From NCBI RefSeq assembly GCF_022201045.2, contig NC_068557.1, positions 744,001 through 808,000 of the forward strand: 64,000 bases of DNA. The letters are read 5' to 3'. Below, piece by piece: positions 2,550 through 63,045 of this stretch. Under the pieces are notes generated by a model, which was not told the DNA's origin, made no database searches, and was given only the letters and a program-made list of their open reading frames with translations. Source of the DNA: Citrus sinensis (taxonomy: Eukaryota; Streptophyta; Magnoliopsida; Sapindales; Rutaceae). Every line of letters begins with the position of its first letter. Within the stretch, counting starts at the first letter, position 1. Made by a program: the position numbers and the translations under genes.

Positions 2550-5500
2550 CACTACAAGAAAATTGGGATAAGGCAACATCATTTTAACAACGTGCACAGA
2601 TGGAATGTTGTCAAATTTATAATTAACAACAGTCATGAACTGCATGTTGGTAAATAAAAAGTTTTAGCAACATGCAAAAAGTGATTGTGGTCTAAAACTT
2701 TACGACAACGAGCGACCGTTTGTTGCGGTATAGGAGTATATAATAACAACATCCATAATTTGCATGTTGCAATTAGTTATTTAAGGCAACAATGAATTGC
2801 CTGTTGCAAAAATTATTATTTAAATAAAAACGTTTATATCTTGCATGTTGTTGAAATTTTTTTTTTTGTAAAATTCTTTGTTAACTCAATTTAATATGAA
2901 ATTGGTGAAAATTAAAACATAAATAGCTGCTCATGGAATTTATGCATAAAAGTATTATAACAAATAAATTTTTTGAGGGTATCATTAACTACAATATTTT
3001 TTAAAAGTAAATTATATCAAATAAATTTTTTGAGGGTATCATTAACTATAATATATTTTAAAAGTAAAGTAATAGAAAATAATGTGTAATAAATAAAAAA
3101 TTTCATTTTGCGCGCACGGGTTAAAGCGCGGTAAAAAAAAAAGAGACAAATTGACTTAGTGAAACCCTCGGTTCTCTTTGCAGTACCACTTTACTCTTTC
3201 TCTGCCACTAAAGGAAAGCAAGCCTCTCAATCTTCATCGTAATGGCGGCTGCCCACCCAAGGAAATGAGTGTATCAGGTACTCTTCTTTTCAATTTCATT
3301 GATAAAGCTCACTTTCACTTCCCTAATTCCATTTAATTAATAATTTACTCTTTCCACCTATTTTGTTTTTAGAAGATTTGGGTCTTCGCCCTATACTTCT
3401 TCTCACTCAAAATCGCTCGACATCGTCCCATTGTAGATTCATTGTTTGGTAAGCGGCACAATTCTTTATTGCTTGTGGGGTTCATCTGTTATGCATGAAT
3501 AAAATAAATGTTACTTTTTTGTGGTGGGTGATTGAAACCAAAAGATTATTTTCTTTTGAAACGCCTGAAGCTAAATATTTTACATGGAAAAGATAATTTT
3601 GAAGATTATATTTTATTTTCAAGATAAACTTATTTCGGTAAAAATAATTTAAATGAGTAAATATTACTAGTGAGATGGATAATTATTTTTTTTTTAATTG
3701 AAAGGCACAATTTTAATCTCTTATTGGCGTTGTTGACTTTATGAAATAGATAAGTTACTTCTGTTAATGCCATTAATCTCTTGAATCAGCTGTGACATTT
3801 TAGGATCTGATTATAGAGCAAACTTGAGGTATTGTTTCCCCCTTGTATAATTAAAATTCAAAATGCATTTCTCTTTTGGAAAAGTTACTTACTATGGAGT
3901 TTTGAGAGATATATTAGTGCTTGATTACAATACTTTTAGCTCCCTATTTTCAAATGTGACTGAACTAATATAGTTAATGCTGTTAAAGTTGACAAAGGAT
4001 TCACTTTGGTTAACCTTCACGAGGGACAAAGCCAATTTGGATTTATTGTAAGGATAATGAAAAATCAAATTAGTATTTAGTATTGAAAAAACCACAAAGA
4101 GGGTTCCAAGATTTATTATTGGCTAGTAAGATTTTTTTTTTGTTCAACTTTAAATTATACTTTTTCATGTTCATATACTTTTTTCTAGTATGTTTATTCT
4201 TACATTAATTTTGCTATGTGTTACAAAGTCTTCTAGGCAAGTCGAGATAAATTTAGAGAAAATGCAACTATTCAAGAGGAGAATGGATCATTAGCAACTA
4301 GCAATAGGGAAAATGCACACAAACCTCAATCTGATGATAGATGCACCAAAAGACAAAAGAGGTCCAACCAAACTTGGAATGATTCAAGATTGTTCTCCAT
4401 CATTAAGCATTGAATTTAACTACTATGGCCAGCCAGTAGGTGTAAATTCTTACAAATATGCACTTTTATTAGAGTTATAACATGAGAGCATGTGCTTGTG
4501 TGCATTGAAATTAGCTTTTAGTTGACAGCGAACTATTGGCCATTGGTGCATGTTTATGGAATTACATAGTAATTATCTTTATTTAGAAATACATTATTTA
4601 TCTTGAATGCTTGGCATTAAGAACGATGGGTGACTGTTGGAGACTATACAAATCAAAGCTAACAACTAAGATAAAGTAAACCAAAAAAGTACATGACAAA
4701 GAAGGTTGCTCTTATTAGGCCAAAAAAGTATAATTTTCAAAGAAGATTGGGCTAATATTGTCAAGTAAAGATTGTCTCCAGAATTTAAAGTAAGCTAGTC
4801 CATTGCATTGCACTTATAGTAACCATGTTAAGTTTCTTGTTTATGAAAATTATACATTTTAATATTTGCTGGACAAGCAATAAGCAAGAAGTTTAGAGAA
4901 ATGAGAAATAATCAGGAAGTTGTATCAAATTGTTTTTAAAAAGGTATGTAGGCATAAAATATTCTTCTTGGGGGTGTGTGTGTGTATAATTATATTCCAA
5001 ATGCAACAAATGAATATTGATTCAGTTAATCTTTTTGTAGGAGTTTGTGCCTTGAAGATGTTTCTGTTGGAGTGTATATATGCTCTGAACAAGTTTTTGA
5101 TGGAATAGCTGAATTGAAGAAGCTTTCGTTGGAGATGGTTTTTTTTAAGTTGATATTTATGGAATTGCAACAGCCACTAATGTGTTTCTTTACTAATTTT
5201 TTGGGTGTTTGGCTAGATGAAATTTAAACTGATGTTGTAAATTTCTATGGATTAATTGTTATATGGTGTTTTTCATATTTGCTATGTAATAGGATTTGTA
5301 TGAATACAAAAATGTTGGTGTGAGCCTTAGCTGTGATGTGGGCTTATTACTAAGTTTATGAAAACTTATTATAACAAGCCAAATTGTAGAAATAGTTCGC
5401 ATGAATTTTACATATGGCGGCAGCAATAGTGTAATAAAAATGATAATATTAGTTGTCATAATAATGATAATAATAATTATTAATAATATATATATATATA

Positions 5501-5834
5501 TATTTTTTTTGACAACATGCAGGATATGTGGTTTATTGTAAATAAAAATTAGAATTAATGGCGACATTTAGTTGCTTGTTGCTATGTAATTTATAGCCAC
5601 ATTCATAGGCTTGTAGTGGAAAGTTTGGAAGCACATGATCTTTTTAACCACAATCATTATAAGTTGTCATATGATATTTAACAATGTTCATATCTTTTTC
5701 AACAACGTGAATTGCGCGTAGTCGAAAGTTACCTACTTTTCGCTACATCAAGAACCGCAACGCTTAGATGCTTGTTGTGATATCCCTTCTACAACACTCT
5801 TTGCCTGTTGTTATATACTATTTTTCTTGTAGTG
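2550..5834. mobile_element. CACTA (En/Spm-type) DNA transposon, non-autonomous, 3285 bp
   Basis: The element starts CACTACAAGAAAA and ends TTTTTCTTGTAGTG, an inverted terminal repeat typical of CACTA transposons. It is flanked by a 3-bp duplication TAG (2547-2549 and 5835-5837), the size this superfamily makes. The inverted copy near 56160-56175 carries the empty site with a single TAG. Subterminal regions hold many short GCATGTTG/CAACATGC-like motifs in both orientations. The interior has a ~52-bp tandem duplication (about 2950-3060) and a gene-like stretch near 3180-3290 with a short ATG frame, possibly captured host sequence. I see no transposase frame, so it is probably non-autonomous. 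Confidence 0.92.
5440..5507. repeat. AT-rich simple repeat (ATA/TA)n
   Basis: A run of ATA/AAT triplets passes into (TA)n and a T-run within the 3' half of the CACTA element. It also explains the open frame antisense to this stretch. Confidence 0.8.
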
Positions 5835-6008: not shown

Positions 6009-6824
6009 ATGACTAAATTATTTGGGCATGTAGCCCTAGGCTTCACCTTCTCTTCACTTGGTTTATGGCGTCTTTTCAATAACATCAAGCTCCACTCTCT
6101 ACACCCAAATTCCTTCACATCTCCCCCATGGTTTCCTTCAAAAATAATAAGGCACATAGAGCTCTTCTCCTTAATGGCAGTGAGCTCAATCTTCATAGCC
6201 TCTGATCTTTATTGGGGCTTCCGAATACCCTTACATAACTCAGATCTAATTATACCGTTAAATCGTGTTCGCCATTTTGAGCATGCAACAATCTCACTAA
6301 ATTTCTTCACTTATGCAGCCTTTGCTATAATTCTCGACAAAATTGGCTCCAAAGCTCATTATGCTCTAACACTTTTCCTTGAAGCAATAGCCTTTGGGCA
6401 AGAGCTTCTTCTCATTCATTTTCACTCAGCTGACCACAAGGGTGTTGAAAGCCAATACCATTTGCTTTTACAAATTATCCTTCTTGTTTCTTTGATCACA
6501 ACCCTAATGACCATCGGCCACCCGCAAAACTTCTTGCTTAGCTTTGTTAGGTCAACTAGTATTACGTTCAATGGTGTTTGGCTCATAGTTACCGGCTTCA
6601 TGCTTTGGACTCCAGCGCTTATACCTAAGGGCTGCTTCATCAATCTTGAAGAGGAGCATCAAGTTGTTAGATGCCTTGGTGATGAGGATTTACTCCGAGC
6701 TAAGTCATTGGTGAACCTTCAATTCAGCTGGTTTTTGATTGCAATCACAGTGTTTTCAGTCTCTTCTTATTTGGTTTTGGACAAAATTTATGATGAAAAG
6801 CTTGATTATTCAACCTTGAGTTGA
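6009..6824 (+). CDS. TMEM45/DUF716 family multi-pass membrane protein, intact
   Basis: A single-exon frame encodes 271 residues and starts with the family-like [13 protein letters not shown]-terminus. Hydrophobic segments lie near residues 5-22, 50-68, 95-110, 115-135, 147-168, 175-200 and 235-258, matching the roughly seven-helix TMEM45 (DUF716) family. Plant members are membrane proteins of poorly known function, some annotated as virus-responsive. The length is normal for the family and there is no internal stop. The first ATG is used, and the same start is kept in the fusion copy at 55995. A CACTA element ends 174 bp upstream of the ATG, so most of the ancestral promoter is now 3.3 kb further away. 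The next gene, a P450, converges from the other strand. Family assignment is firm, function is not. Confidence 0.9.
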   Translation: MTKLFGHVALGFTFSSLGLWRLFNNIKLHSLHPNSFTSPPWFPSKIIRHIELFSLMAVSSIFIASDLYWGFRIPLHNSDLIIPLNRVRHFEHATISLNFFTYAAFAIILDKIGSKAHYALTLFLEAIAFGQELLLIHFHSADHKGVESQYHLLLQIILLVSLITTLMTIGHPQNFLLSFVRSTSITFNGVWLIVTGFMLWTPALIPKGCFINLEEEHQVVRCLGDEDLLRAKSLVNLQFSWFLIAITVFSVSSYLVLDKIYDEKLDYSTLS

Positions 6825-9571: not shown

Positions 9572-9586
9572 TTTATATATAATGAA
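9572..9586 (-). promoter_or_regulatory. Putative TATA box of P450 copy A
   Basis: Reading the minus strand, TTATATATAAATTGG lies about 70 bp before the ATG of the P450. It is kept upstream of the copy at 63926 (near 63851), and related TATA elements precede copies C (about 48193) and D (about 61267). Confidence 0.6.
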
Positions 9587-12521: not shown

Positions 12522-14833
12522 CTCAATAGTAGGCAATTCGTACTTCACTTGTATGATCAATATTAGGCAACTTGTACTTGACTTGTATGATCAACGTTAC
12601 AGGCAATCAATTTCCTTGGAAATAATTAGTTCCAAATTTGTAGGGATGTCAATCTACTTGTCGGTAAACGTGTCATATTTATCCCGTATGTTGTTTTCTT
12701 TTCTTTTTCTTTTTTTAATGTTTCATTCAATATAATAAATAAAATATGGTATTCAAAAGTTATAGTGGATCAAAGTGGTAAATATAGTTTCTGAGAGTGA
12801 CGAAAATGTCCTTCATATATTCACAGCCTATAAGATGGCGATATTCGTCACAGTTTTGCCAAATTCCATCATTAGGATATTTAAGTTTCATTTTCAAATT
12901 TCTTTTAGAAATTTTAGATATTTCATCATTTTGTAAAAAAGCTCGAATGCAGTCGTGTCTCTCGTGAAGCAAATCTCAAAGTGTCAAAGTGGGAGAGCCA
13001 TCTCATTGTTTTAAATTAATATGGAAAAAGTAGCCGACATGCTCTTCAGTAATATGATTTAATAAAGTTAGTGTGCAATTTGCTATTAAACTTTGTGAAA
13101 TAATAAAGTTAGTGTTCGATTAACTATAAAGTTATGTGATTTAATAACATTTCCGTATGAAAAAAATGGGGACGCCTATAACACCACAAGTTTAACACAT
13201 GCGAAGCATGAGGTAAAGAGGGTTATTTATAAATCATAATCCTTACAAACAAAACCTCAAACTAAAATATCTCAAATTTTATTAATTCGATCCATAAATC
13301 CACAAGTCGAATGCTAAATATTTTCTCCTAAAGACATAAATTTAACAAAAGTCTCAAAACTCCCTAATTACAAGTTCAAAAGATAAATAAACTTAAAGGA
13401 AACAAAAGTTCGTCATTCTCTTATTCAACAAGCAAAAGTAAATGAATCTTTAGCTCCATAAATAAGCACATCTCTCAACTCTCAACAAGTTACTCAATCT
13501 GCAAAAAGTAATGAGAATGGGTGAGCCGTCAACTTAATAAGTAAAATCATTCTCAACATACTAGGGTTATCAAGTACCAAAAGTATTGCAAGCCCTTTTT
13601 TATTAAAACATACATTAGAAGTAATAAATTTTATAAAATGACATGTTATAATGAAAGGAGAAAAATTCATAAGAAGTTCATAATATCAAAAGCATAATTA
13701 ATCATTAAAATAAATAGTATAACACTTATTTGGGTTGGGTTCGGATCAACCCGATCAGGTTTCGGGTTGGTCGGGTTGGATGAATTCCGAACTCCACCCG
13801 AACGTATATTCGGATCGGGTTAAAAAATCAAGTGGAGATCGGATCGGATTGGATTCAGATTAGATGGGGTTCAGATTAGATTAAGGTTGATTCAGGTCGG
13901 GTGAAATCAGATCAAATAGGATTCAGGTCAATTCGGGTTTATGCAATTTTGAGCTATTTTTTCTTTTCTCGACATTTTTAGATTGTTTTTTTAAACTGCT
14001 TTTCTTAATTATAATCATTTTTTAACCAATTTTCAACCAACAAAAAAGGAAACTACTATAGAATCAAATTCAAATGAATGAAAATTAAAAATTAACACAA
14101 AGTATAAACTTAATAAAAATAAAAATTAGCACAAAGTTTAAACTTAATAGTCTCCATCCAAAGCACAATGTCCAAACATTAATCTTTAGAACACAAAGTC
14201 ACAAATTTAAATATAATTAAATAGTTTGTTGTAACGCCAAAATTTCCATGATTTTAAATTATGGAAAATTTTGCTTTATTAGAATTTATAAATGGCATTA
14301 TTGCCCTTATAAATAGGGTTATTCATGAGGTAATTTTGGAAAAGGCTTATTTTTTTTTAAATTTAATAGGATTTCTTAAGACTCTCTATAAATTTATACT
14401 TTTCCCTCTTTCATAACCCTAAGTGCACAACATTTTTCTTTTTTTTTTCTCTCTGTTGCTTATTACGCTCTTACTCATACCCTACGATTCAAATATTTGT
14501 TTATGAGATAATCATAACGGTTGCTAAGTTTACTCTCTTTATTCTCTACAAGTTTTCCTGTCATTCTATTTAGGGTTTTATTTGTATAATTACATGTAGG
14601 GATTATTGAATAAATTTTGTTTCATCAGATTTGACTTCGTTTTCAATTTTATATGTATTTTCGAAATAGACACTGCTGCACTGTAAAACTGCAACTTCAT
14701 TAGAATGATAAAATTCACAAAATTATTTGTAGTACCAAAAGAATTCAAAAAATTCTGAAATTTTTTAAAAAAAATGGAAATATGTGTCTAATATTCACAG
14801 TTTTAATTTTATAATTTTTTGATTAATTTCTAG
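12522..14833. other. Intergenic DNA with GGGTCGG-type degenerate repeats
   Basis: The part up to about 13170 is duplicated intergenic sequence. At 13730-13940 there is a run of degenerate GGGTTGG/TCGGGT/CGGATC motifs, similar in style to 28780-28885 and 29390-29540. From about 14228 a stretch starting TGTAACGCC might be part of an LTR, but I find no partner. No gene is supportable. Confidence 0.45.
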
Positions 14834-16116
14834 GCGCAGTGCTTCCGATGACCATGAAAACTGCCATTCAGCTTGGTGTGCTAGAGATTATGGTAAAAGC
14901 TAGCCCAAATCAACTCCCTTGCCTCTCAGCTGCCCAAGAATAACAAAGAAACCCCAATAATACTTGACAGAATGCTGCGCCTCCTAGCCAGTTACTCTTT
15001 CCTCACATGTAATCTTGCCACAAATATTAAAGATGGGAGTGCACAAAGATTATATGGTTTAGCATCAGTTTCCAGATATTTTTTTCCAAATGAAGATGGA
15101 GTTTCTCTTGCTCCCACTCTGCTCATAATTCAGGACAAAGTTAATATGGATTCTTGGTAATTCCTTTTTCTAATTTCCTTATACTAATTGTATGTCTAGG
15201 GCTTGTAAATACACTCAGCACTCATATCTGTGCATGAAAGATGCTTTATTGGAAGGGTTTATAAATACACTCAACAGGTACTACTTGAAAAATGCTTTAT
15301 TGGAGGGGTCGGTACCACATACAAAGGCGCAAAGTGGAATGGATGCATTTGCAGCTGCTGCCAAAGATGCTAGAATGAATAACCTCTTCAATCAATCAAT
15401 GCACAATCACACAGGTATAATCATGAAGGAAATTCTTGAAATCTACAAGGGATTTGAAGGCCCAAACCAATTGGTGGATGTTGCCGGTGGCTAGATACCC
15501 ACAAATAAGGGTATTAACTTTGACTTACCTCATGTTGTCGAACACCCTCTTGTCCAGGTATTTAACTATAAATATATATGTCACTTGTTTCCAGCTAACC
15601 TAGTTTTATGGATTCTTCTCTTTAATTTGAGTAATTTATTTTACCATTAAAAAAGAAGAAGATAATTTCCTTTTCATTTCTGTCTTAATTCTCCTGTAGT
15701 TGTGGAGCATGTTAGTGGACATATGTTTATTGAAGTTCCTAACGGACAAGCTCTTTTCATGAAGGTTGGTTCTTTATTTTATTAATATTTAATTCTTGAA
15801 ATTGAAAAAAGAACTATTAAATAGTGTAGGTTAATTCTGAAAAATTTGTGTCTTTAAAAACTAATTATAAGAAATGTTCATATAAGTCTAACTTTCAGTG
15901 GATACTCTCTGACTGGGATGATGAAGAGTGCTTGAAGATACTAAAGAACTGCTGCGTACAATGCAATACCGGAATCTGAAAAGGTCAAGGCCTTGGCCAC
16001 AAGGAGAGAACATTGTAGGAGTTCAAGGCCTTGGCAACAAGAGTTGGATTTGTAGATATTAAAGTTATTTGCCTAGCTTACTGCTATTAGGTTACTGAAT
16101 TTTACAAAAAGATCTA
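14834..16116 (+). pseudogene. O-methyltransferase pseudogene (COMT-like), all four exons decayed
   Basis: The sequence follows the exon order of the intact OMT at 33650-35125, but the first ~25 codons and the start are missing. Exon 1 (14834-15158) has lost bases in the region before the codons for LDRMLRLL, which shifts the frame. Exon 2 (about 15235-15555) contains extra, partly duplicated sequence at its start and a stop (TAG) in the SAM-binding loop after VDVAGG. Exon 3 lies near 15700-15763. Exon 4 (15900-16116) has an extra base run and an internal deletion joining the GKV region to the C-terminal VGFVDIKV region. The paralogous promoter block also lies upstream. It cannot make a methyltransferase. 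Confidence 0.9.
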
Positions 16117-16814
16117 AGCATTATGAGCACCAGTCATTGAATTTAAAAATAAAATGAGATTAGCCTGTCCTTACTTTGTTTGTATTCACTTCATATCTTC
16201 TCTTGCAAGCACATGTACTCATTTTGTTCCTCGGACAAGCTAGGTTCTTCTCCTCATTTTTTTCCCCTTTATACCATCCCTTATTAAATAAATGGTTAAG
16301 ATTAAGTTTTATATTTATTTTTGACTTTTATTTATAATTTAACCAACTTTTTAAAATAAATTATAAAGATAAGAAGAGAAACAAAATAAGGAGAGAAGCC
16401 TAATCCTTATTCCTCCATATCTGTTGTAATTTGATTTCTTTTACCAATATTAAGAATATTATAATTTTTTAATAAAAACAAAAAGTTTATGGTTTTCTAT
16501 TGGTGAATTGAGAATTGTGCCGCCATCAAATTATAAAATCGTACCCGTATGTATTCGATGAACAGACTATTCTATGCGGACCACCAAGTCACCATCAAGT
16601 TAAGGTTGCAAAGCTAATGTGAAATACACAAAAATGGATTCAGAGTTTTATCGGAATTAGATAAGCTTGACTTAGGATATGATGTCTCTTCATGCTGTTT
16701 CACGTGATAAGCAATAACCTGCTGTTTTGGTTGGAGAGAAAATGATCTACTTGCATAGAAAATTTTGCAGAACTAAGTTTTTGAGAGTACTTTTACTTTA
16801 TTTTGATGGCTCTT
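16117..16814. other. Intergenic DNA, no gene recognised
   Basis: AT-rich 3' flank of the OMT pseudogene, ending at the CACTA terminus at 16815. Nothing else is recognised. Confidence 0.5.
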
Positions 16815-16972: not shown

Positions 16973-17165
16973 AACGGGAGAAAAGTGTTTTATTGTTTAG
17001 AGTTTTCGTGTTTTAAAATCTTGTGTTTTATTTTGAAGTTTTGTTTTTGTGGTGAATTTTTACTGGTTGTAAGTCCCGTTTTAGGATAAGGATTCTGCTG
17101 AGGGCTGTAAATCCATACCTGTAGCTATTCTGACCAAACCAAAAATAGACCATAAGGTCTTGACC

Positions 17166-33549: not shown

Positions 33550-33561
33550 TATATATAAAGG
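33550..33561 (+). promoter_or_regulatory. Putative TATA box of the intact OMT
   Basis: TATATATAAAGG lies about 95 bp before the ATG and directly follows a (CA)n microsatellite (33532-33548). The same arrangement is kept in inverted form upstream of the OMT stub at 59482. Confidence 0.7.
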
Positions 33562-33649
33562 TTTAGCGTTCCATAAACCAAGCACTGCTCTTCAGCATCC
33601 ATACAGCACCTTGTTTGTTTCTCCATTATATCCTAATTTGACTAAGAAG

Positions 33650-35125
33650 ATGGGTTCACTCCAAGATGATCACCAAGTCATGTTGAAACCAGCAAGGGAT
33701 GAGCAAGACTTCTTGTTGGCCATGGAACTCGCTTCCGGCGCAGTACTTCCAATGACCATTAAATCTGCCACTGAGCTTGGTTTGTTGGAGATAATGGCGA
33801 AAGCTAGCCCAACTCAACTCTCTTCTTCAGAGATTGCCTCTCAGCTGCCCACAAATAACAAAAAAGCCCCAATAATATTGGACAGAATGCTACGCCTCCT
33901 AGCCAGTTACTCTTTTCTCACATGTAATCTTGTCTCGAACAAAGATGGAAGTGTACAAAGATTATATGGCTTGACACCAGTTTCCAAATATTTTGTTCCA
34001 AATAAAGATGGAGTTTCTCTTGCTCCCACTCTGCTCATAATTCAGGACCAAGTAAATATGGATTCTTGGTAATTTGTTTTCTAATTTCCTTGTACTCACA
34101 TTAATTGTATCTGTAGATGTTATAATATAATATATGCACTCAATTAATTAATACTCATATTTGTGCATGATATCTTCCGACAGGTCCTGCGCTAAGGATG
34201 CTTTATTGGAAGGGTCGGTTCCATTTATGAAGGCACATAATGGAATGGATGGATTTGCGGCTGCTGCCAAAGATGAAAGAATAAATAACCTCTTCAATCA
34301 ATCAATGCACAATCACACAACTATAGTCATGAAGGAAATTCTTGAGATCTACAAGGGATTTGAAGGGCTGAACCAATTGGTGGATGTTGCCGGTGGCTTA
34401 GGTGCAAATCTTAAATCAATTGTTTCTAAATATCCACAATTAAGGGGTATTAATTTTGATTTACCTCATGTTCTCAAACATGCACCCTCTTGTCCAGGTA
34501 TATAATTATTCACGTATACGTCACTCGTTGCCAGCTTATTTAATTTTGTAGATCCTTCTCTTACGTAAAATATTTTCAATTAATTATCATTTTAAAAACA
34601 ACGATAATTTCCTTTTTCCCTTGTGTTTTAATTCTCTTGCAGGTGTGGAGCATGTTGGAGGAGATATGTTTGTTGAAGTTCCTAAAGGACAAGCTATTTT
34701 CATGAAGGTTAGTTCTCTACTTAATATTTAATTATTGAAATTGAAAATAAAATATTGATTATGTATGTCAATTCCAAAAATTTTGAAATTTCATGAAATG
34801 TTCATATAAATTAATCTCTCAGTGGATACTTCATGACTGGAGCGATGAAGAATGTTCGAAGATATTAAAGAACTGCTACGAAGCAATACCGGAATCCGGA
34901 AAGGTCATTTTGGTGGAATCAATAGTGCCAGAATTCCCCGAGACTGATATTGTAAGCAAGAATATAGCAAGTCTTGACGTACACCTCTCCAATCTATTTC
35001 CCGGAGCAAAGGAGAGGACATTGGCGGAGTTCAAGGCCTTGGCAACAGGAGTTGGATTTGCAGATATGAAAGTTATATGTCGTGTTTACTGCTATTGGGT
35101 TATTGAATTCTACAAAACGATCTAA
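33650..35125 (+). CDS. Caffeate-type O-methyltransferase (COMT-like), intact, four exons
   Basis: Exons 33650-34068, 34184-34497, 34643-34707 and 34823-35125 have GT-AG borders and join to 366 residues, the usual length for plant COMT-like enzymes. Such cytosolic homodimers move a methyl group from S-adenosylmethionine to phenolic hydroxyls (phenylpropanoids, flavonoids, coumarins, alkaloids). The N-terminal dimerisation domain covers about 20-130. The SAM loop is VDVAGGLG (206-213), where most family members have VDVGGGTG. The catalytic base is His270 in HDWSD. Glu298 and Glu330 (in GAKERT) match the two conserved glutamates. The ATG at 33650 gives the family-like MGSLQDD start; an upstream in-frame TTG is not used. 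Neighbouring P450s suggest a shared pathway, but the substrate is unknown. Confidence 0.93.
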
Positions 35126-48268: not shown

Positions 48269-50077
48269 ATGGCTTTACTTGTTCTTGTGATCCTTTTTTG
48301 TCTTCCCATCTTTCTATTGTTTTTTCTCCAAAAACACAGAAAAAACACAAGCGCTAAACTTCCACCTGGCCCTCCTGGTCTCCCCCTAATCGGTAACCTA
48401 CACCAGCTCGATGCCACAAACCTTGCATTTTGTTTTTGGAAACTTTCTAAACAATATGGTCCCATCTTTTCTCTGCGTCTTGGTTTTAGACCAACCATAG
48501 TAATTTCTTCAGCAAAATTGGCTAAAGAGGCCTTCAAAACTCACGATCTTCAATTTTCTAGCAGGCCAGTTTTGAGTGGCACGCAAAAGTTATCTTACAA
48601 TTTCTTGGGTCTCACTCTGACTCCACATTATGAGAGCTGGAGAGAGATGAAGAAAAAATTTGTCACCCATATGCTTAGCGCTAATAGAACTGAGCAATTT
48701 CGTCAAGTTCAAACAGATGAGATTTTCCGTATGATTGAAAAAATATCAAAATTAAGCGCAGCACCTGCTGCTGCTGATAATGATTATGTCTCATCGGAAG
48801 CACCTATCAACCTGAGCGAGATGGCGATGACTCTTATACGTAATATTATTTTTCGAGTTGGTTTTGGCAAGAGGTTCGAAGATGAAGGCACGGCAACTGT
48901 AAGTAGACTCCATTCTGTTTTTGCGGAGACTCAGGCCATGGTGGGGAGAGTCTTTTTCAGAGATTGTTTGCCTTTCGTGGGATGTTGGCTCGATAGTCTC
49001 ACAGGATGGAATCGTCGCCTCAGAAATAATTTCAGTGATTGTGATAAAGTTTATCAGCAACTCATCGAGGACCATTTGGATCCAAAGCGACCAAAAGTTG
49101 CTGAGCAAGAGGACTTAATTGATGTTTTACTTGGTGAGATGAAAACTGCTGACGATCATCAAACGTTTGATAGTATCAAATCGACGATCATGGTACTATG
49201 TTTTTTTAACTCAAAATTAATTTAAATTCTTAGCTGTCCCCAGCACTTAGCCAGAGTTTTCAAGGAACTTTAATTAGCTGACAATCTGTATACGAATCAT
49301 GAAGTAGGGGTCTAACAAATTAATTTGGGTTCTTCGCTCCTCTTATCTTTTTTTTTTTTAAATTAAACTCTCAGCGTTTTTTCTTTTTCTAATTAGATAA
49401 AAAAATTAATCTTTCCTGATGTATATGTTTAATTATTTATTTTTGTTTTTATTTATTTATTTTTTTGCAAGCAGGAAAATATAGCTGCCACTGACACAAT
49501 TAAAGTTACACTCGAATGGGCTATGACCAACCTAATGAAGAATGCTGAAGCAATGAAGAAGGTTCAAAAAGAAGTAAGATATGTGGTAAAAGATAAAGGC
49601 TTTGTAGATGAAGACGATCTTACAAGATTAGAGTATCTTAAGGCTGTAGTCAAAGAGACAATGAGATTTCAACCAGCGGCTCAATTCCTCCCAAGAGAAA
49701 CCACAGAAAGGTGCGTTATCGATGGTTATCACATACCAGCTAAGACAACGGTTTTCGTTAATGTGCTGGCAATAGGAAGGGACGGCCAAGTTTGGGATAA
49801 ACCAGACGAATTTATTCCTGAGAGATTTGTGGGCTCTAATATTGATATGGGAGGTCAAAACTTTGAATTTATCCCATTTGGTGCCGGTAGAAGAATTTGT
49901 GCAGGATTACCCATAGCAATGCCGATTGTGGAGCTTGCACTTGCCAATCTTCTTTACAAATTTGATTGGACAATGCCGCGTGGAATGGAGATTGATGACT
50001 TGGATTATGATGTTAGGCCCGGATTTACCCAGCACAAGAAGAATCCTCTCTTGCTTGCAGCTACCAAGTTTATATGA
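48269..50077 (+). CDS. Cytochrome P450, CYP71 clan (copy C), intact, two exons
   Basis: Exon 1 is 48269-49192 and exon 2 is 49475-50077, with a phase-0 GT-AG intron, giving 508 residues. It has a membrane anchor, PPGPPGLP hinge, I-helix AATDT (312-316), ExxR as ETMR, FIPERF, and heme loop PFGAGRRICAG with Cys450. Compared with copies A and D it has an extra Ala-rich loop (KLSAAPAAADNDY). It also has Leu406 where all other copies have Trp (NVLAIGRD against NVWAIGRD), a position usually conserved. I prefer the ATG at 48269 (MALL) because it is shared by all copies; an in-frame ATG at 48227 would add 14 residues before the anchor. It should be an ER-bound monooxygenase with unknown substrate. 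Confidence 0.92.
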
Positions 50078-51171
50078 AGACTTGGATTGTTCGCGTTTAT
50101 ATGTATTTCTTGTTTGAGGATCATAATAATAACTGCAAGGGTGATTTTCTGCTTTCATTTAAAAGTGAGTAATGTTAGGGATCTCAGCTTTTTAGTCCTA
50201 ACGTGAGTCTTAATTTACATGTTATTTATTTATTTATTAGATAATAAAATAAATAATGAATAATTACATTCATCGTCTAATAAATGAATGATTCATAATA
50301 TTAAGATTCAAGTTATGAATCAAATATTGAGATTTCAAACATTATTGATTAAGAGTATGGTTCATTATGTTTCTCTAAAATGTTGTCTCATTTTGTTGTT
50401 CCTTTTTATATTTAAATAAAATTCTATCCCAAACGGAATCATTCACGTTAAAAACTAATAATAATAATACTAACAAGAAAGATTTTTCCTTGGAATTTCT
50501 TTAATGTCCAATAAAATTTAAAAAAAATTGTATAAGTTTTCATAAAATAATCAATTTTGATATTGCTAAGCTCTTTTCCATGTCCTGAACATCAGTTGAT
50601 GCCATTGGATCTTGGATTTCTTAACAGCTAATTAAAATATTTTATGAAAGAGAAACAAATTGAATAATTTATTTTTGTGTAAATTAAAGATAAAACAATA
50701 AAGTGGAAGGCAAAAGTTTTCGTAGTTGGAGGTTGCTTGATCATTAATGTGGTTCTAAATTTTTATTGTTTTCTATGATATTTTAAATATTTACCAAAAA
50801 AAAAGGGTGATTTGCTTGAGCCTACATAGGAATTAGGTAGCTCCGCCTTTGGGCCTAAGGGCCTTCTCATACTATAACGGGAACGTCATCCGCCCACATA
50901 TCATACAACTCATGGATTTAGGTTCAATACTGGGCTAATCAGTGTTTAATTCTTCATAATTTTCCACCATAATTTTCTAACATGCGTGAATATATAGTAG
51001 TATATAGTTAAAATCTAATTAGTTTTATATTCTTAAGCAATAATCACCAATTGTATTTAAAAAAAAGTCAATAAAAAGGTCGGATCAACACATTATAAAT
51101 AGGTAGGCAGAGGTGTGTTGTTAATTTGTATTGCACATAACTAACTAGCTAATTGCTCCAAATGAAAAAAA

Positions 51172-52052: not shown

Positions 52053-53591
52053 AGCACCTATAAATTCAAGCACTTATTCTCTTTATACACACAAACAACA
52101 ACAAATTGAAAGAAAAGTTTTTTGGATTGTGTGATTGAATTTGAGGCACAATAGCTTTAATAGGAAATAAAGACAATTGCCTGCTTTGTAAAACTCTTAA
52201 TTTGAAAACCTGTTTATAACACGATTAATTATTCAATTAATTATACTAATTTACTTATATTTTAATTGATAGATATGTGCTGAATTGCCATCTCTATTGT
52301 TGTGCACGTGCGATGTTAGCAAGAGAGAATAAATAGAAAATAGTTATTTTTTAGTTTATTTTTACTAAGGAAATATTTAAATTATTTCAAATAAAGTAAT
52401 TGTTCAGAATTTAACCTTCTCTCAGTTAAGTTAATGAAAGATCTCAACCATATGGGTGTGTGCTGATGACTATTTGAACTGTTGGGGTGGAGTAACAAAC
52501 ATCAATTTATTTAAGTGTGTAATTAAATTTATTCTTTTTATTTAAGGATAAAAACTCAACCAAAAATACAAACTCATTGTTCAAACAAATAAAAATTATT
52601 TTACAAATTCATAAACTAACACTTTATTACATAATTAAATAATTGATAGCATGTTAAATAAATCTTATGTTACAAAAGAAAATTAACTACATAGAATATC
52701 AAATTAAATTTATTTCTGTATTTTGTACATTACATTTACTTGAGATAGTAAAATCTCTTGTGTTGGAATAAAAAAAGTTATGGGGTTTGAACCTTGGTCA
52801 CATGGTTGAGAGGAAATTGGTTGCTGTTATGTTAAAATTAAAAAAAAAATCATATTTATATTTATCATTAATTATGGTTCATAAATAATATACGTAGTTT
52901 AACTATATAATAAATTAGTTAATTTTTTAATGAATAATTAATTTATTAATTGAAATATATATTAATAAATGTAAGAATAAGTTATTTAATTGGAAATCTA
53001 GTTCAATAGTGTAAAAAAAATTCGAATATTATGGACTTATATGTCATAATTTTAAAAATTTTGATTTTTCTTATTTTGTATGAACAAGAAGGGCTTTTAA
53101 TGTTAATAACCTAAAATCACATCTAAGCCATTATACAACTTTTGGGTTACACGCAACGGTGAATTTGAAAAAGACAAAAAGTGGGGCACCAAACCTCAAG
53201 GGTAACGTAGTTGGACCATTTCAAGAATGATAATCGAAAGAATGTGAGCATTTTGTTGCCTCATTTCGATTAAAATTTTTTTGAGAAAGATGAAACTTTT
53301 GAACTTTCTCTTAAAAAAAAAAGAAAAAAAATCTAAGATATAAGTTGAAATTGGAAAACTCTACTATACAGTATACACGGTCGCCCAATTACATGATGCG
53401 CTTTTCAAGGCCTGGTCTCCGAAAAATAAAGTTTGGCTTGGGCTTTTCAAGGCCTGGGCTTCCCCGAAAACAGTGTTTGGGCCCAACCCATTTTCCTCCC
53501 CAAAATGCGACCGTGAAATTTTGAAATATGACCAAGCTTATTTCAGCCTGCCCAGTCATCAAGCTTACGATGCTCCACACTCTATTAATTA
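52053..53591. other. Intergenic AT-rich DNA, no gene recognised
   Basis: Nothing supportable. The stretch 53390-53575 is richer in GC and may be a transposon piece. From 53592 the inverted 3' flank of the OMT begins. Confidence 0.5.
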
Positions 53592-54182
53592 ATCATTTTC
53601 CAAATGATCATTTTTAAACAACCTCAAATCCCTCTGTCAGTAAACAATTCTACTATCTTTCTCTAATTTTTTTTTTCAATATTTTATGCCTATAGTCGTA
53701 CTTGTGATTTTATTTTTTTTCAAATAATTTGTTTTATTAATCAATTTGCAAACCTTATTGTCACTTACAATACAGCAAATTGTATTCAATCCACCAATTG
53801 GGAAAAATTTTAAATCTTATCCTATCAACCAATCCACCAGATTGAAAAAAAAAATATGAATTGGAATTTCCAGAACTGGGTGCACTGGTTTGGACTATGA
53901 GCACCTATAGCTGGATATTTTGTAAAGCACAATTATGAGAAATGAAGCAAATTATTTTTAATAAATCTCAATAAGAGGCGGGTTTATTATTACTATAAGA
54001 AATGAAATTATAAAAGTCATGGAGGAACAAAATGAACAATGCCTAGAAATTATTGGAACGTGGGAAGAGATAGAACTGTTGATCAGACAGAATAAGGACA
54101 GGATTCTGTCATTTAATTTAAAAAAAAGGAAAAGAAAATGCATGCGAACCATAAAATGACCAGCACTCGTAAATCGTAATGC

Positions 54183-55995
54183 TTAGATCGTTTTGTAGAA
54201 TTCAATAACCCAATAGAAGTAAACACGACATATAACTTTCATATCTGCAAATCCAACTCCTGTTGCCAAGGCCTTGAACTCCGCCAATGTCCTCTCCTTT
54301 GCTCCGGGAAATAGATTGGAGAGGTGTACGTCAAGACTTGCTATATTCTTGCTTACAATATCAGTCTCGGGGAATTCTGGCACTATTGATTCCACCAAAA
54401 TGACCTTTCCGGATTCCGGTATTGCTTCGTAGCAGTTCTTCAGTATCTTCGAACAGTCTTCATCGCTCCAGTCATGTAGTATCCACTGAGAGATTAATTT
54501 ATATGAAAATTTCGTGAAATTTCAAAATTTTCGGAATTGACATACGTAATCAATATTTTATTTTCTATTTCAATAATTAAATATTAAGTAGAGAATTAAC
54601 CTTCATGAAAATAGCTTGTCCTTTAGGAACTTCAACAAACATATCACCTCCAACATGCTCCACACCTTCACGAGAATTAAAACACAAGGGAAAAATGAAA
54701 TTATCGTTGTTTTTAAAATGATAATTAATTGAAAAAAATTTTACGTAAGAGAAGGATCTACAAAATTAAATAAGCTGGCAACGAGTGACGTATACGTGAA
54801 TAATTATATACCTGGACAAGAGGGTGCATGTTTGAGGACATGAGGTAAATCAAAGTTAATCCCCCTTAATTGTGGATATTTAGAAACAACTGATTTAAGA
54901 TTTGCACCTAAGCCACCGGCAACATCCACCAATTGGTTCAGCCCTTCAAATCCCTTGTAGATCTCAAGAATTTCCTTCATGACTATAGTTGTGTGATTGT
55001 GCATTGATTGATTGAAGAGGTTATTTATTCTTTCATCTTTGGCAGCAGCCGCGAATCCATCCATTCCATTATGTGCCTTCATAAATGGTACCGACCCTTC
55101 CAATAAAGCATCCTTCGCGCAGGACCTGTCGGAAGATATCATGCACACATATGAGTATTAATTAATTGAGTGCATATATTATATTATAACGTCTACAGAT
55201 ACAATTAATGTGAGTACAAGGAAATTAGAATACAAATTACCAAGAATCCATACTAATTTTGTCCTGAATTATGAGCAGAGTGGGAGCAAGAGAAACTCCA
55301 TCTTTATTTGGAACAAAATATTTGGAAACTGGTGTCAAGCCATATAATCTCTGAACACTTCCGTCTTTGTTCGAGACAAGATTACATGTGAGAAAAGAGT
55401 AACTGGCTAGGAGGCGTAGCATTCTGTCCAGTATTATTGGGGTTTTTTTGTTATTTGTGGGCAGCTGAGAGGCAATCTCTGAAGACGAGAGTTGAGTTGG
55501 GCTAACTTTCGCCATTATCTCCAACAAACCAAGCTCAGTGGCAGATTTCATGGTCATCGGAAGTACTGCGCCGGAAGCGAGTTCCATGGCCAACAAGAAG
55601 TCTTGCCCAAAGGCTATTGGTTCAAGGAAAAGTGTTAGAGCATAATGAGCTTTGGAGCCAATTTTGTCGAGAATTATAGCAAAGGCTGCATGAGTGAAGA
55701 AATTTAGTGAGATTGTTGCATGCTCAAAATGGCGAAAACGATTTAACGGTATAATTAGATCTGAGTTATGTAAGGGTATTCGGAAGCCCCAATAAAGCTC
55801 AGAGGCTATAAAGATTGAGCTCACTGCCATTAAGGAGAAGAGCTCTATGTGCCTTATTATTTTTGAAGGAAACCATGGGGGAGATGTGAAGGAATTTGGG
55901 TGTAGAGAATGGAGCTTGATGTTATTAAAAAGACGCCATAAACCAAGTGAAGAGAAGGTGAAGCCTAGGGCTACATGCCCAAATAATTTAGTCAT
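54183..55995 (-). CDS. Chimeric gene: TMEM45-like N-terminus fused in frame to a complete O-methyltransferase
   Basis: Exons 55995-55241, 55125-54812, 54665-54601 and 54485-54183 join without stop to 478 residues. Residues 1-131 match the TMEM45-like protein at 6009 (a few substitutions) and include about three hydrophobic segments. Residues from 131 on match the OMT at 33650 from its Gln19 on, so only 18 OMT residues are lost. The SAM loop VDVAGGLG (about 318-325), catalytic His382 in HDWSD, and both conserved glutamates remain. Exon lengths 2-4 equal those of the intact OMT. The junction lies in GCAAGA (55601-55606), present in both parents. The intron-2 acceptor is weaker (GTGAAG instead of TTGCAG) but keeps AG. 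The TMEM45 promoter drives it, without the CACTA insertion. It could be a membrane-tethered methyltransferase, or a non-functional product or misassembly. Confidence 0.82.
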
Positions 55996-57090
55996 AATCT
56001 ACTTTAAGTTTTCCCTAGACCAAAACTATATTGTTTAATGATTTAAGATGGGAAAATCCTACCGTATATTTATATTGAAATGAAATAATTACGATGGTGA
56101 TTAAAAGAATCAAGTAAGATATTAAATCTTTTGCTTCTTGTTTTGCAATCTTGTGGCCTTTCCTCACTAGTTAATATTTAATGCTGCAATTATGCTTATG
56201 TGTTACAAATTGTATATCTTTTGTTATTATATGGATACCGTAATCAAAACTATAGAAGCAAAAGATTTCATTTTGCGAATACGCCAAATTAAGTACTGAC
56301 ACTTCTCTATTTTCAATTGAATTTTAAAGTATCCATTTATTGTCCACAAGTTACTCCTCAAGATAAAGTCAATGGCAAAATCATGAACATATATATATAA
56401 ATTTTCAAGAAAACAACATACAAAAAGTTATATAACAGAAACAATCACAAAACTATAATATTTAATAGAGCGTAGATTAAGTAATCGGATCAATTAATTA
56501 ATGGGTAATTCTTACTTTGGTCCTTGTTATATATGAGTGAGATATTGTTTAAGAAGTGTACTATTATTCTAAATCCGAGATATCATTTTGTGTCACCTAT
56601 GCTTAGAACATGTTTAACATAAACCTAAAATAACACTTGTGCCTCTGAGTTTTATTATAACTATAGATTAGTTTTTTTTTTAAAAAAAGAATTATAACAT
56701 ACCAAAATTTGACCCTTTTTTTAATATGGTACAAATCATTTGACTCTTTTTGTTTTAATATGGTACGATTCAATTGATATATTTACTATCAGAATTCAAT
56801 TGGGGGATCAATATCACTAAAACACATTCTAGTATTCAACCCTAAACTCAATCTACAAACTAGCGAGAGAGAAATCAATTCTCACCAAACTATAGATATA
56901 TGATTGTTAAAGAGAATGAGAGTCCCAGACTAGAAATCAGGTTCCGAATAGGACCAGTTGGGCTAGGAGCCCACTAACTAACTACATATACATTTAAAAG
57001 ACCATTTGCCACCACATATTCACTCATCACGTTTCACTGATAACACAATCTATGAGAAAATAGACATTGAATACCACACTCATACATACT
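55996..57090. repeat. Inverted-duplication arm with the uninterrupted TMEM45 upstream region
   Basis: Reverse complement of 6008-5838 plus 2549-1630. The CACTA target near 56165-56172 is empty. It serves as the upstream region of the fusion gene. Confidence 0.88.
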
Positions 57091-57580
57091 AGGACAAAAC
57101 TATGGTGCAACTGTGGTACCATACCACAGCTGCACCTAGCCATTAGATTTAGCTGCACACATGTACTGTAGGAAAAATATTTTCGACACCCGTCCTGTTT
57201 CAATTGGAAAAATCTAGCATTTATGTGGTCCACATCTGTCAATTATAGTGGGACTTAAAAGCGCTGCCAACCACAATTAATAGAGATTGAGAATTTCTCT
57301 ACACATCATCTTCTTATTTTTTGGTTTATAACTTTTAATTTATACATATAATAACTCAATTCAGATCGGCACAATTATCATATGACTTTTGTTATCTTAT
57401 ATGATCATATAAGATATATGATTCTTTCACAATTCTTAAATTTTAAGTAATGATTGTGGAAATAACATAATTTTATTATCTTATATTTTTATAATTGTTG
57501 GATTTTCATCAAACAGCTATAAAAGAATCATATATCTTACATAATTATGTAAGATAATAATCTCTTTATCATGTACTTTG
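57091..57580. other. No gene recognised
   Basis: AT-rich unique sequence between the duplicated arm and the Copia LTR. Imperfect inverted repeats around ATATGATTCTTTC (57415) and GAATCATATATC (57525) might fold, but no element is identified. Confidence 0.45.
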
Positions 57581-58845
57581 TGTTAAGATTAAATGATGAG
57601 TTGGATTATCGTTGCTTAGGTGGAGTGCTTAGTCAAGTGCTGAACTGGAATTCTGTTGTGTTAAGTTGTTGAATTCCCGCTAAGAGTTTGTTACGTTTTA
57701 GATTTGTTTCTAGCTCATGCTTTGCATGCTTTAGAAGATTCTAGGCTTCACTATAAATATCATTGTATCAATTCAGATTAATAAGATTTACAGAGCATCT
57801 TTTCAGTTTTCCAGAATTCCCTCTCGTTTATACTTTCCTTTATTTTCCTGCCAACCAAACAGATCTTATACATTTAACATGGTATCAGAGCTTATTTTCA
57901 GATCAATCTAATGGCCTTAACAAGTTCAAGTTCACAGCTAAATACTTCATTTACCTTCACCACTCCAATTAAGCTAGATCGCACTAATTACACGATCTGG
58001 AAGCAACAAGTGCTTTCGTCAATTCGTGGAAATGGATTGGAGAGCTATATTGATGGATCTAAAATCTGTCCTACTCAATATCTGTTTTCTGAGTCTAGAA
58101 TAGCTAGTTCTTCGAATACTGAAGCTCAAGCACAAGAAAATCCAGAATATGGAGCATGGAAGCGTCAAGATCAACTACTGCTGAACTGGATCATGTCCTC
58201 CATAAGTGTCGATATACTAAGCCTTGTGGTAAACTCTCAAACCTCTTTTGAACTTTGGAAAAGTCTAGAAAAGCAATTTGGATCTGAATCCATGGCAAAA
58301 AAGGTTCATCTGAAAATGCTTCTTAATAATTTGAGAAAAGGCTCTCTGTCAATGACTGAGTATTTTACTAAACTCAAAACAGTTACTGATGGTCTTGCAT
58401 TAGCTGGTAGTCCTGTTAGTGATATTGACTTCATAACTCATCTTATTACTGGATTAGATCATTCTTATTATCTGGTTGTTGTTTATGTCGAGGCCAATAT
58501 ATTGAACATGGATATGAGTGAAGCATATTCTATGTTGCTAACACATGAAGCTAGACTTGAGAATAATAAACTTAGTGAGAATAAGGAAATGAAAAGCAAT
58601 TATGCAGCAAATATAGCTCAATCTTGAAATTTTCAGAAGAAAGGGGGTAGTTCTAATAACTCTCAAGGGAACTGGCATTCTAATAACTCTCAAGGGAACT
58701 GGAATCAAGGCAGGGGTAATAACTGGAATTTTAATGGTGGAAGGAGTGGTTTTACTGAAAATGGAAGAGGAAATAACCAAGGACAAGGCAGGGGTAATAA
58801 CTGGAATGGTAACTTCAGGGGTAATTCTGGTGGTTTTAACAATGG
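57581..58845 (+). mobile_element. Copia-type LTR retrotransposon, truncated after gag
   Basis: A 299-bp LTR (57581-57879) begins TGTTAA and ends TTAACA. It is followed directly by the Met-tRNA primer site TGGTATCAGAGC (57880-57891) and the gag start at 57911. The element ends at about 58845, where the sequence switches to OMT exon 2. Protease, integrase, reverse transcriptase and the 3' LTR are all absent. A TATA-like CTATAAATATC lies inside the LTR near 57751. Confidence 0.9.
57911..58627 (+). pseudogene. Copia gag, truncated
   Basis: The 238-codon frame has the plant Copia gag layout: FTTPIKLDRTNYTIWKQQVL near the start, then LLLNWIMSSISVDILSLV and a SMTEYFTKLKTVTDGLALAG block. A TGA at 58625-58627 ends it, but the same frame continues with a Gly/Asn-rich tail to 58843, so the TGA looks premature. 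No zinc knuckle remains before the junction. Gag would form the retrotransposon particle. Confidence 0.85.
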
Positions 58846-59482
58846 ATTTATTCTTTCATCTTTGGCAGAAGCCGCGAATCCATCCATTCCATTATGTGCC
58901 TTCATAAATGGTACCGACCCTTCCAATAAAGCATCCTTCGCGCAGGACCTGTCGGAAGATATCATGCACACATATGAGTATTAATTAATTGAGTGCATAT
59001 ATTATATTATAACGTCTACAGATACAATTAATGTGAGTACAAGGAAATTAGAATACAAATTACCAAGAATCCATACTAATTTTGTCCTGAATTATGAGCA
59101 GAGTGGGAGCAAGAGAAACTCCATCTTTATTTGGAACAAAATATTTGGAAACTGGTGTCAAGCCATATAATCTCTGAACACTTCCGTCTTTGTTCGAGAC
59201 AAGATTACATGTGAGAAAAGAGTAACTGGCTAGCAGGCGTAGCATTCTGTCCAGTATTATTGGGGCTTTTTTGTTATTTGTGGGCAGCTGAGAGGCAATC
59301 TCTGAAGACGAGAGTTGAGTTGGGCTAACTTTCGCCATTATCTCCAACAAACCAAGCTCAGTGGCAGATTTCATGGTCATCGGAAGTACTGCGCCGGAAG
59401 CGAGTTCCATGGCCAACAAGAAGTCTTGCTCATCCCTTGCTGGTTTCAACACGACTTGGTGATCATCTTGGAGTGAACCCAT
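58846..59482 (-). pseudogene. O-methyltransferase stub: exon 1 and part of exon 2
   Basis: Exon 1 (59482-59064, 419 nt) is open and starts [20 protein letters not shown]. Intron 1 is intact. Exon 2 (from 58948) stops after about 34 codons, where Copia gag sequence begins. 58846-59430 is almost identical, about three differences by eye, to 55022-55606 inside the fusion gene. The stub keeps the OMT promoter and the 18 N-terminal codons that the fusion lacks. It cannot encode an active enzyme because the SAM and catalytic regions are missing. Confidence 0.9.
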
Positions 59483-61068: not shown

Positions 61069-61259
61069 AATAAAAAGAAAAAGAAGACTGCTATGAATTA
61101 TTATGAAGAATAAAAAAGTTTTAAAACTCAAAATAAGGCATGTGCCCCATCTCATCCACCAGTCGTAATTGAACATCCATGAAGAATAAAAAATTATCGA
61201 AACGCAAAAAGAGGGATGTGCCCGATCTCATCCAGCGAAAGGCTTTAATCCGCCCATGC

Positions 61260-61275
61260 ATCATAATATATAAGT
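61260..61275 (+). promoter_or_regulatory. Putative TATA box of P450 copy D
   Basis: CATAATATATAAGTAGG lies about 70 bp before the ATG, at the same place as in the other copies. Confidence 0.55.
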
Positions 61276-61338
61276 AGGAATAGGTCTGTTGTTGTTGTAT
61301 GCACAAGACTCCCCAGCTACTTGCTAAGGAAACAAGGA

Positions 61339-63045
61339 ATGGCTCTACTTGTTGTTGTGTTCCTTTTTTGTCTTCCCATCTTTCTATTGTTTCTTCTTCA
61401 AAAACACAGAAAAAACACAAGCGCTAAATTTCCACCTGGCCCTCCTGGTCTCCCCATAATCGGTAACCTCCACCAGTTCGATACCACAAACCTTGCATTT
61501 TATTTATGGAAACTTTCCAAACAATATGGTTCAATCTTTTCTCTGCGTCTTGGTCTTAGACCAGCCATAGTAATTTCTTCAGCAAAATTGGCTAAAGAGG
61601 CCTTCAAAACTCACGATCTTCAATTTGCTGGCAGGCCAGTTTTGCTTGGCCTGCAAACGCTATCTTACAATTACTTGGGCGTCACTTTTGCCCCACATTA
61701 CAATGAATGGAGAGACATGAGGAAAAGATTTGTCACCTCTTTGCTTAACTCTAATAGAATTGAGCAATTTCGTCGAGTTCGAAAGGATGAGATTTTCCGT
61801 ATGGTTGAAAAAATATCAAAGCTAGGCGATGCCGCTGATGAAGATGGTTCATCCAAAGTGCCAATCAACTTAAGCGAGATAGCGATGACTTGCGTACGTA
61901 ATATTATTTTTAGAGTCACTTTTAGCAAGCGCTTTGAAGATGATGGCCCAGCAGCTGTAAATAGATTGGATTATCTTCTTGCGGAAACTCAGCTCCTGTC
62001 TGGGACCATTTTTTTCTCAGACTGCTCTTTTTCTTTCATCGGTAATTGCCTCGATAGAATCACAGGAATGCATCGCCGTCTCCAAAAGCATTTCAAAGAT
62101 TGTGATCGATATTATCAACAACTCATCGATGACCATTTGGATCCAAAGCGACCACAAGCTGCTGGTCAGCAAGGGGACTTAATCGACGACTTACTTAATC
62201 TCACTAAAGCTGGTGATCTGACATTGGACGATGTCAAAGCAGCAATCATGGTACATGCATAATCTATTCCTTTTACCAAAAATTAATTTATTTCTCATCT
62301 AGTTGTTCCCCACTGACGTACTTGGCCGAGTGGTTCTCAAGTATACCTGGCCACCCCAGTTCGAATCATCAATTTTGGTTTGCCATTTCTCGTATAATGC
62401 ACTTGCTTAATACATGTGCTTTAATTTGCATATATGCAGGAAATATTTATAGGTACCACGGACACGAGTAAAGTTACTATTGAAATGGCTATGACCCACC
62501 TAATGAAGAATCCTGAAGCAATGAAGAAGGCTCAAGAAGAAGTTAGAAGTGTGGTTAAAGATAAAGGGTTTGTAGATGAAGATGATATTCCAAGATTAGA
62601 GTATATCAATGCTGTAATCAAAGAGACAATGAGGATTCAACCAGCGGCTCAATTCATCCCAAAGGCAACTTCAGAAAGGTGCGTTATCGATGGTTATCAC
62701 ATACCAGCTGAGACAATGGTTTTAGTTAATGTGTGGGCAATAGGAAGGGACCCTCAAGTTTGGGATAAGCCAGACAAATTTATTCCTGAGAGATTTGTGG
62801 GGTCTAACATTGATATGGGAGGACAAAACTTTGAATTTATACCATTTGGTTCCGGCAGAAGAATTTGTCCAGGGATACCTATAGCATTGCCCAGTGTGGA
62901 GCTCGCACTTGCCAATCTTCTTTACAAATTTGATTGGAAAATGCCTCATGGAATGAAGATTGATGACTTGGATTTTGAGGCTACGCCTGGCCTTACCCAG
63001 CACAAGAAAAAGCCTCTCAAGCTCGTGGCAACCAAATCTATATGA
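61339..63045 (+). CDS. Cytochrome P450, CYP71 clan (copy D), intact, two exons
   Basis: Exon 1 is 61339-62250 and exon 2 is 62440-63045, with a phase-0 GT-AG intron, giving 505 residues. It has an N-terminal anchor, PPGPPGLP hinge (32-39), and I-helix GTTDTS (309-314), with Thr where copy A has Ala. ExxR is ETMR (366-369), PERF is present, and the heme loop PFGSGRRICPG has Cys447. It is the inverted twin of copy A (7800-9506), with the same intron length class and tRNA-like intron segment. Its upstream region differs: it is shared with copies B and C plus the local repeat array, so the coding block and promoter have different histories. The MALL ATG is used; the upstream in-frame codon is TTG. 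The substrate is unknown. Confidence 0.93.
62318..62375 (+). repeat. tRNA-like segment inside the P450-D intron
   Basis: TGGCCGAGTGG (A-box-like) and AGTTCGAATC (B-box-like) about 30 bp apart, the same as in the copy-A intron. It is absent from the introns of copies B and C. Confidence 0.5.

Follow-up and report, generated by a model that had tools for sequence, protein, structure and literature searches.

COMT-like O-methyltransferases (OMTs) of plants are soluble cytosolic homodimers, and those of the COMT type carry a methyltransferase domain together with a dimerisation domain (PF00891 and PF08100). The TMEM45/DUF716 family consists of membrane proteins, among them P0122 in Citrus and human TMEM45A (structure 7oqz). 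TMEM45 proteins are located in the ER and Golgi (PMC13056615). Human TMEM45A is reported as predicted type 3a and TMEM45B as predicted type 3b (PMC5015219), which does not settle the orientation. A third point of comparison is provided by the repair-mediated duplications of vertebrates, in which foreign DNA is inserted at the break point and local sequence is duplicated (PMC2671141).

Here, we describe a gene that joins the 5' part of a TMEM45-like gene to an OMT, found in a stretch of 64,000 nucleotides of the Citrus sinensis genome (assembly GCF_022201045.2, contig NC_068557.1, positions 744,001 to 808,000; hereafter the window, to which all positions refer). We consider it probable that this gene is a recent, lineage-restricted chimera derived from local rearrangement in a Citrus OMT/P450/TMEM45 cluster, under little or no constraint and with no useful enzymatic role. 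Like COMT-type OMTs, the fusion has a whole methyltransferase domain and a nearly whole dimerisation domain, and it has the same four OMT exons as OMT-A, the intact paralogue in the window. Unlike them, it begins with 131 residues from a membrane protein in place of the first 18-19 OMT residues, and its OMT part differs by two replacements of its own and by a changed splice acceptor. The nearest Citrus OMTs among the matches listed are P0004 and P0010, and the nearest solved sequences are 6i70 and 1kyw. With the TMEM45/DUF716 family the fusion shares the first 131 residues and the upstream region, but it stops inside the fourth of seven transmembrane helices (TM4), and nearly all of DUF716 and the invariant cysteine pair of the family are gone. 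The breakpoint insertion and local duplication resemble those of PMC2671141, and the junction has short homology here; in contrast to those cases, the duplication flanks a 3.2-kb composite insert, the frame was kept open and the organism is a plant. The OMT-OMT fusion models P0002 and P0013 likewise join an OMT to a coding part, but have no TMEM45 part (other long matches were judged by length and Pfam only), and the 587-bp flanking duplication of the fusion is not of the kind seen in Pack-type TIR transposon capture.

Table 1. Features of the chimeric gene, its relatives and its surroundings, in window positions
Feature	Position	Strand	Remarks
CACTA-type DNA transposon	2550..5834	.	termini CACTACAAGAAAA; 3-bp target duplication TAG
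TMEM45/DUF716-like paralogue (6009 copy)	6009..6824	+	271 aa; ends 9 residues before the 280-aa P0122
OMT-C, pseudogene	14833..16126	+	match from OMT-A residue 30; stops, frame changes
OMT-A, intact paralogue	33650..35125	+	366 aa, four exons
Fusion 3' flank	53587..54182	-	against the OMT-A flank, 1 mismatch in 594 and 2 gap columns
Chimeric gene	55995-54183	-	1437 nt, 478 aa + TAA, four exons
Exon 4, OMT	54183..54485	-	stop TAA; F at OMT-A position 356
Exon 3, OMT	54601..54665	-	65 nt, no multiple of 3; acceptor AAG, against CAG in OMT-A
Exon 2, OMT	54812..55125	-	
Exon 1, TMEM45-OMT	55241..55995	-	TMEM45-like codons 1-131, then OMT from D20
Junction	55601..55606	-	6-bp microhomology GCAAGA, common to the TMEM45 and OMT genes
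Captured TMEM45 upstream region	55996..57091	-	matches 1631-2549 and 5835-6008
Rest of insert	57092..58845	+	~0.4 kb, then copia 5' end cut off at 58845
OMT copy B1, truncated	58846..59482	-	exon 1 and start of exon 2; start codon 59482

The gene structure described in the sequence-only reading of this DNA, with its coordinates, frame, four open exons and product of 478 residues, was recovered as claimed, and all three introns have GT...AG borders. So were the 131 TMEM45 codons and the loss of 18 OMT residues: D132 of the fusion aligns with D20 of OMT-A, while Q131 is encoded by the shared GCAAGA (55606-55601), the OMT part lacking its first 18 (or 19) residues. When the window was compared with itself, the TMEM45 half (55595-56169) matched the TMEM45 paralogue (6410-5835) at 97.6% identity, and the OMT half (53587-55609) matched OMT-A (35719-33700) at 97.8%. 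Judged by sequence, both matches are far above chance, which concerns the frame alone: two coding exons joined at random would be in frame in one case out of three.

In the fusion, Pfam detected Methyltransf_2 over residues 252-457 (194.7 bits) and Dimerisation over positions 5-92 of the 93 in the profile (65.3 bits); the Dimerisation match of OMT-A covers profile positions 2-92, starting at its residue 17 (68.6 bits). The motifs ILHDW, LVESI and AKERT of OMT-A align to the sequence of 1kyw, and we take the catalytic His and two Glu to be those known as H269, E297 and E329 in alfalfa COMT. No replacement separates the fusion from OMT-A at these motifs, which confirms that the catalytic residues were kept. 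Given the open exons, the dimerisation score and the catalytic residues, an active enzyme is possible. The three OMT introns are all present in the fusion, whereas a processed retrocopy would have lost them. The acceptor of intron 2 reads GAAG/G in the fusion, GCAG/G in OMT-A and GTAG/T in OMT-C (the slash marks the splice point), so that CAG has become AAG and T has become G at position -6, changes that were assigned to the fusion by comparison with OMT-A and OMT-C only. AAG acceptors are weaker, yet usable in plants. The OMT-A protein is the same as C. clementina P0010, save for a 32-residue gap of that isoform.

The TMEM45 part is identical to P0122, its nearest Citrus relative, at 130 of 131 residues. 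Four residues and three silent sites separate it from the 6009 copy, and at E66, F87 and H102 it sides with P0122 against that copy, which is therefore unlikely as the direct donor; over the whole TMEM45 piece, 49 of 1491 positions differ between the two loci (3.3% distance). The 6009 copy ends in STLS* where P0122 reads STLSRKEDDSFLT, and the C. sinensis protein P0129, like P0128, ends there as well. DUF716 (PF04819) gave no Pfam match in the fusion, against 165.9 bits in the 6009 copy, where the match begins at residue 120. Upstream, a TATA-like box is found at 56074, 79 bp ahead of the fusion ATG. The CACTA element lies 174 bp upstream of the start of the 6009 copy, and the fusion has the corresponding empty site; hence, the TMEM45 fragment was in one piece when it was captured, and it is the 6009 copy that changed, through the CACTA insertion.

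Where the OMT domain would lie depends on the orientation of the TMEM45 part. Plain hydropathy at a threshold of 1.3 missed TM1, and also TM3 in the fusion, so we used the helices of P0122 predicted by AlphaFold (2-31, 50-71, 84-112, 117-140, 146-170, 175-200, and 225-261; pLDDT 82), by which the fusion holds TM1-3 and 15 of the 24 residues of TM4. The only solved structure matched by this model at E values up to 0.001 is human TMEM45A (7oqz, E 7e-6). Loops 1-2, 3-4 and 5-6 share with the C-terminus a side that has more lysine and arginine than the other in all 30 sequences compared (mean, 8.2 versus 3.8). Two cysteines, Cys209 and Cys222, are invariant in the same 30 and are the only widely conserved ones; they bracket a predicted hairpin on the side opposite the loops rich in lysine and arginine. 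The positive-inside rule, together with the oxidising surroundings in which a disulfide is expected to form, predicts a lumenal N-terminus and a lumenal segment after TM4; the signal for a lumenal chain after TM4 is clear in the family, but in P0122 alone the margin in lysine and arginine is slim (7 versus 6).

In the fusion, the chain leaves TM4 after those 15 residues and continues as one helix into OMT helix 1. A model of exon 1 gave a helix at 115-141, although with low confidence (pLDDT 68, pTM 0.47) and from a mixed alignment in which TMEM45 and OMT rows were partly misaligned. The joined TM4 region is still hydrophobic, and, given also the slim charge margin of P0122, both orientations are conceivable, or a mixed placement. 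From these models, the OMT domain is expected in the ER lumen; it could be cytosolic if TM4 were not inserted or if the orientation were reversed. The catalytic domains of P450s, with their active sites, are on the cytosolic face. It had been proposed that the membrane anchor could bring methylation to the ER, next to the P450s of the same cluster, and the predicted lumenal position of the chain after TM4 speaks against this. The fusion claim thus stands for the in-frame join and the kept catalytic residues, but not for ER tethering beside the P450s.

Read against its copies in the window, the layout of the locus shows a local rearrangement as the source of the fusion. On the minus strand, the OMT counterpart of 33318-35719 consists of two separate pieces. 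The upstream one, B1 (59806-58846), carries the native upstream region, which matches that of OMT-A as far as 59806, together with exon 1 and the first part of exon 2, and gives way to copia-type sequence; the downstream one (55609-53587) runs from OMT codon 19-20 to past the 3' end. B1 is a second, truncated copy of the OMT part, located 3.2 kb upstream of it; like the intron-2 acceptor and the doubt about the 6009 copy as direct donor, it goes beyond what the sequence-only reading had described. A duplication of 587 bp (59432-58846 and 55609-55023, 99.3% identical) flanks the 3.2-kb insert, made up of a truncated copia 5' end, a stretch of ~0.4 kb, and the TMEM45 piece, with ~1.1 kb of upstream sequence and 393 bp of coding sequence. 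A putative copia LTR (~57496-57879) and a primer-binding-like TGGTATCAGAGC at 57880 were both read by eye, and the copia gag open frame extends, stop to stop, over 57878-58627. The stretch between the putative LTR and the TMEM45 upstream piece (57092-57495) had no strong match within the window.

This layout would be most simply explained by one break, template switching and duplication. A double-strand break would have occurred within an OMT copy and the insert would have been copied in during its repair, by template switching or by filler capture with tandem duplication; this would account for the in-frame join of the TMEM45 5' part with the downstream OMT copy, which is seen at the 6-bp microhomology. 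An alternative for the origin only, compatible with the best explanation of function, is that a tandem OMT pair existed first and suffered two separate truncations with no repair duplication, one copy being fused to TMEM45 by a 5' deletion and the other cut by copia-bearing sequence. The same final layout would result, and B1 and the fusion may owe their ends to separate events; however, more independent breaks are required, and the 587 bp, being 99.3% identical, fit one recent duplication, although gene conversion could also have made them so similar. We find this alternative doubtful, if worth keeping in mind.

The age of the rearrangement bears on what an open frame can mean. Past the junction, 3 of 584 positions distinguish the fusion from B1; when these are polarised by OMT-A, one change is private to the fusion (A73T) and two are private to B1. 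Divergence between the fusion and OMT-A is uneven, with 38 differences in 1162 positions (3.3%) in the 5' part and 2 in 852 (0.2%) in the 3' part, counts from which three gaps of one base and a mismatch at 33702, to the left of the junction, were omitted. The low-divergence tract starts within exon 4 and includes the flank. The contrast has a Fisher P of 1e-7 with the boundary chosen from the data, and a scan that allows for that choice reached it in 1 of 20,000 permutations. The near-identity of the 3' sequences suggests a recent conversion or exchange with OMT-A, and such an exchange could have kept the fusion exons intact. C. unshiu P0004 differs from both OMT-A and the fusion at six residues in the 3' tract (282-348).

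We estimated the probability that the frame would be open under neutrality at 0.42-0.83 for a divergence of 0.17-0.34% per lineage and at 0.08-0.32 for 1% (Poisson process, transition weight of 4, indel/substitution ratios of 0.05-0.15). With values of 0.42-0.83, the openness of the frame is no evidence of function, and we rejected it as such. The Ka/Ks comparison with the OMT copy at 33650, which had been suggested as a check, is equally uninformative. Between OMT-A and the fusion, 24 codons are changed, 9 by replacement and 15 silently, and the ratio is low (dN 0.011, dS 0.078), but it mostly reflects history before the fusion; hence, it gives no evidence of selection on the fusion and we did not accept it as a selection test. 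Five of the nine replacements (37, 52, and 134-136) are common to B1, and D276 is common to C. unshiu P0004, so these are older than the fusion or old polymorphisms. I219V could be placed on no branch; the same holds for the silent changes in the TMEM45 part, so that the ratio given is not one for the fusion branch.

Three replacements are assignable to the fusion: A73T, C356F and, in the TMEM45 part, A126P. Among the 119 OMTs in the matches listed, two have T at position 73, and position 356 is variable, with C in P0004, P0010, P0017, and P0019; A73T and C356F may be harmless. A126P falls inside TM4, at a position where the 120 TMEM45 homologues listed have A (99), S (16), G (4), or T (1), and none has P.

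Searches of a database of 5.8 billion clustered proteins retrieved 240 proteins, none of which is a fusion of the two halves; 118 of them correspond to the TMEM45 half and 119 to the OMT half, and the other three (P0012, P0135, and P0211) align loosely across the join and are, by their Pfam labels, one OMT model and two DUF716 proteins. With the full-length fusion as query, 2439 proteins were found at E values up to 0.001 among 7997 scored, and the best 120 of the 2439, which were listed, align over no more than 82% of the query, although a copy of the fusion would be expected to have ranked first. The first 131 residues matched 6 proteins, all DUF716, of 280-317 residues, and the 6009 protein gave 502 matches, of which the best 120 were listed. 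Proteins of C. clementina, C. unshiu, C. sinensis, and C. x aurantiifolia are among the matches listed. Literature searches on TMEM45-OMT, on Citrus OMT, P450 and DUF716, and on OMTs with transmembrane segments found no publication on a fused TMEM45-OMT gene among the matches listed.

If the chimera were transcribed, the TMEM45 promoter would drive it, and its product would be a membrane protein of three to four spans with the OMT domain predicted in the ER lumen; alternatively, it would fold poorly, owing to the merging of TM4 into OMT helix 1 and the new proline. Damage is also seen in the neighbouring OMT copies: B1 is truncated and OMT-C is a pseudogene.

Among the other explanations, an assembly or haplotype artefact, in which a short homology caused reads from different copies or haplotypes to be misjoined, would be favoured by the near-identical copies of a duplicated cluster and by the 6 bp shared at the join. 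However, both halves diverge by 2-3% from the window's other full copies and have changes of their own, the window contains no N, and a misjoin would hardly yield the truncated B1, the insert and a junction located away from long identity. We consider an artefact unlikely, and the fusion is likely natural.

That the gene codes for a functional ER-anchored OMT, which would methylate the products of the same-cluster P450s on the cytosolic face, seems very improbable to us. The open frame, the retained catalytic residues and dimerisation domain, the retained TMEM45 upstream region of ~1.1 kb, TATA-like box included, the P450 genes within the window, and the residence of TMEM45 proteins in the ER and Golgi (PMC13056615) are all consistent with such a role, but the predicted lumenal position after TM4, the proline in TM4, the lack of any fusion among the 240 proteins retrieved, and a fusion that itself bears no sign of constraint argue against it. 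The chances are similarly slight for a transcribed and stable tethered OMT of one-step origin acting at the ER, perhaps with TM4 uninserted and the OMT domain in the cytosol beside the P450s. A promoter swap, in which the TMEM45 promoter would drive a shorter soluble OMT from an internal methionine, is hardly credible: the in-frame ATG at OMT codon 24 exists and the TMEM45 upstream region was kept, but a transcript beginning near the TATA-like box, as we assumed, would present the TMEM45 ATG before it, and the loss of 23 residues would cut into the dimerisation domain, which in OMT-A is matched from residue 17.

The window also contains two inverted pairs of P450 genes, 97.2% (7098-9606 and 61240-63746) and 94.6% (40661-42413 and 48384-50129) identical; the copy at 42.4 kb apparently lacks its N-terminal part, and a P450-like fragment is found at 37939-38520. 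Long open frames at 17085-24184 resemble an endogenous plant pararetrovirus, with coat-like and protease/reverse-transcriptase-like motifs.

If no more than the evidence presented here is true, the chimera offers a clean and recent case of a duplicated metabolic cluster that, in breaking up, gives rise to an in-frame chimera with a borrowed promoter, and is thus useful for the study of how chimeric genes are born. If it were true that the protein is made and is active at the ER face, the gene would provide a natural test of the effect of methyltransferase-P450 tethering on pathway flux, and the tethered OMT would be a natural example of enzyme anchoring by gene fusion.
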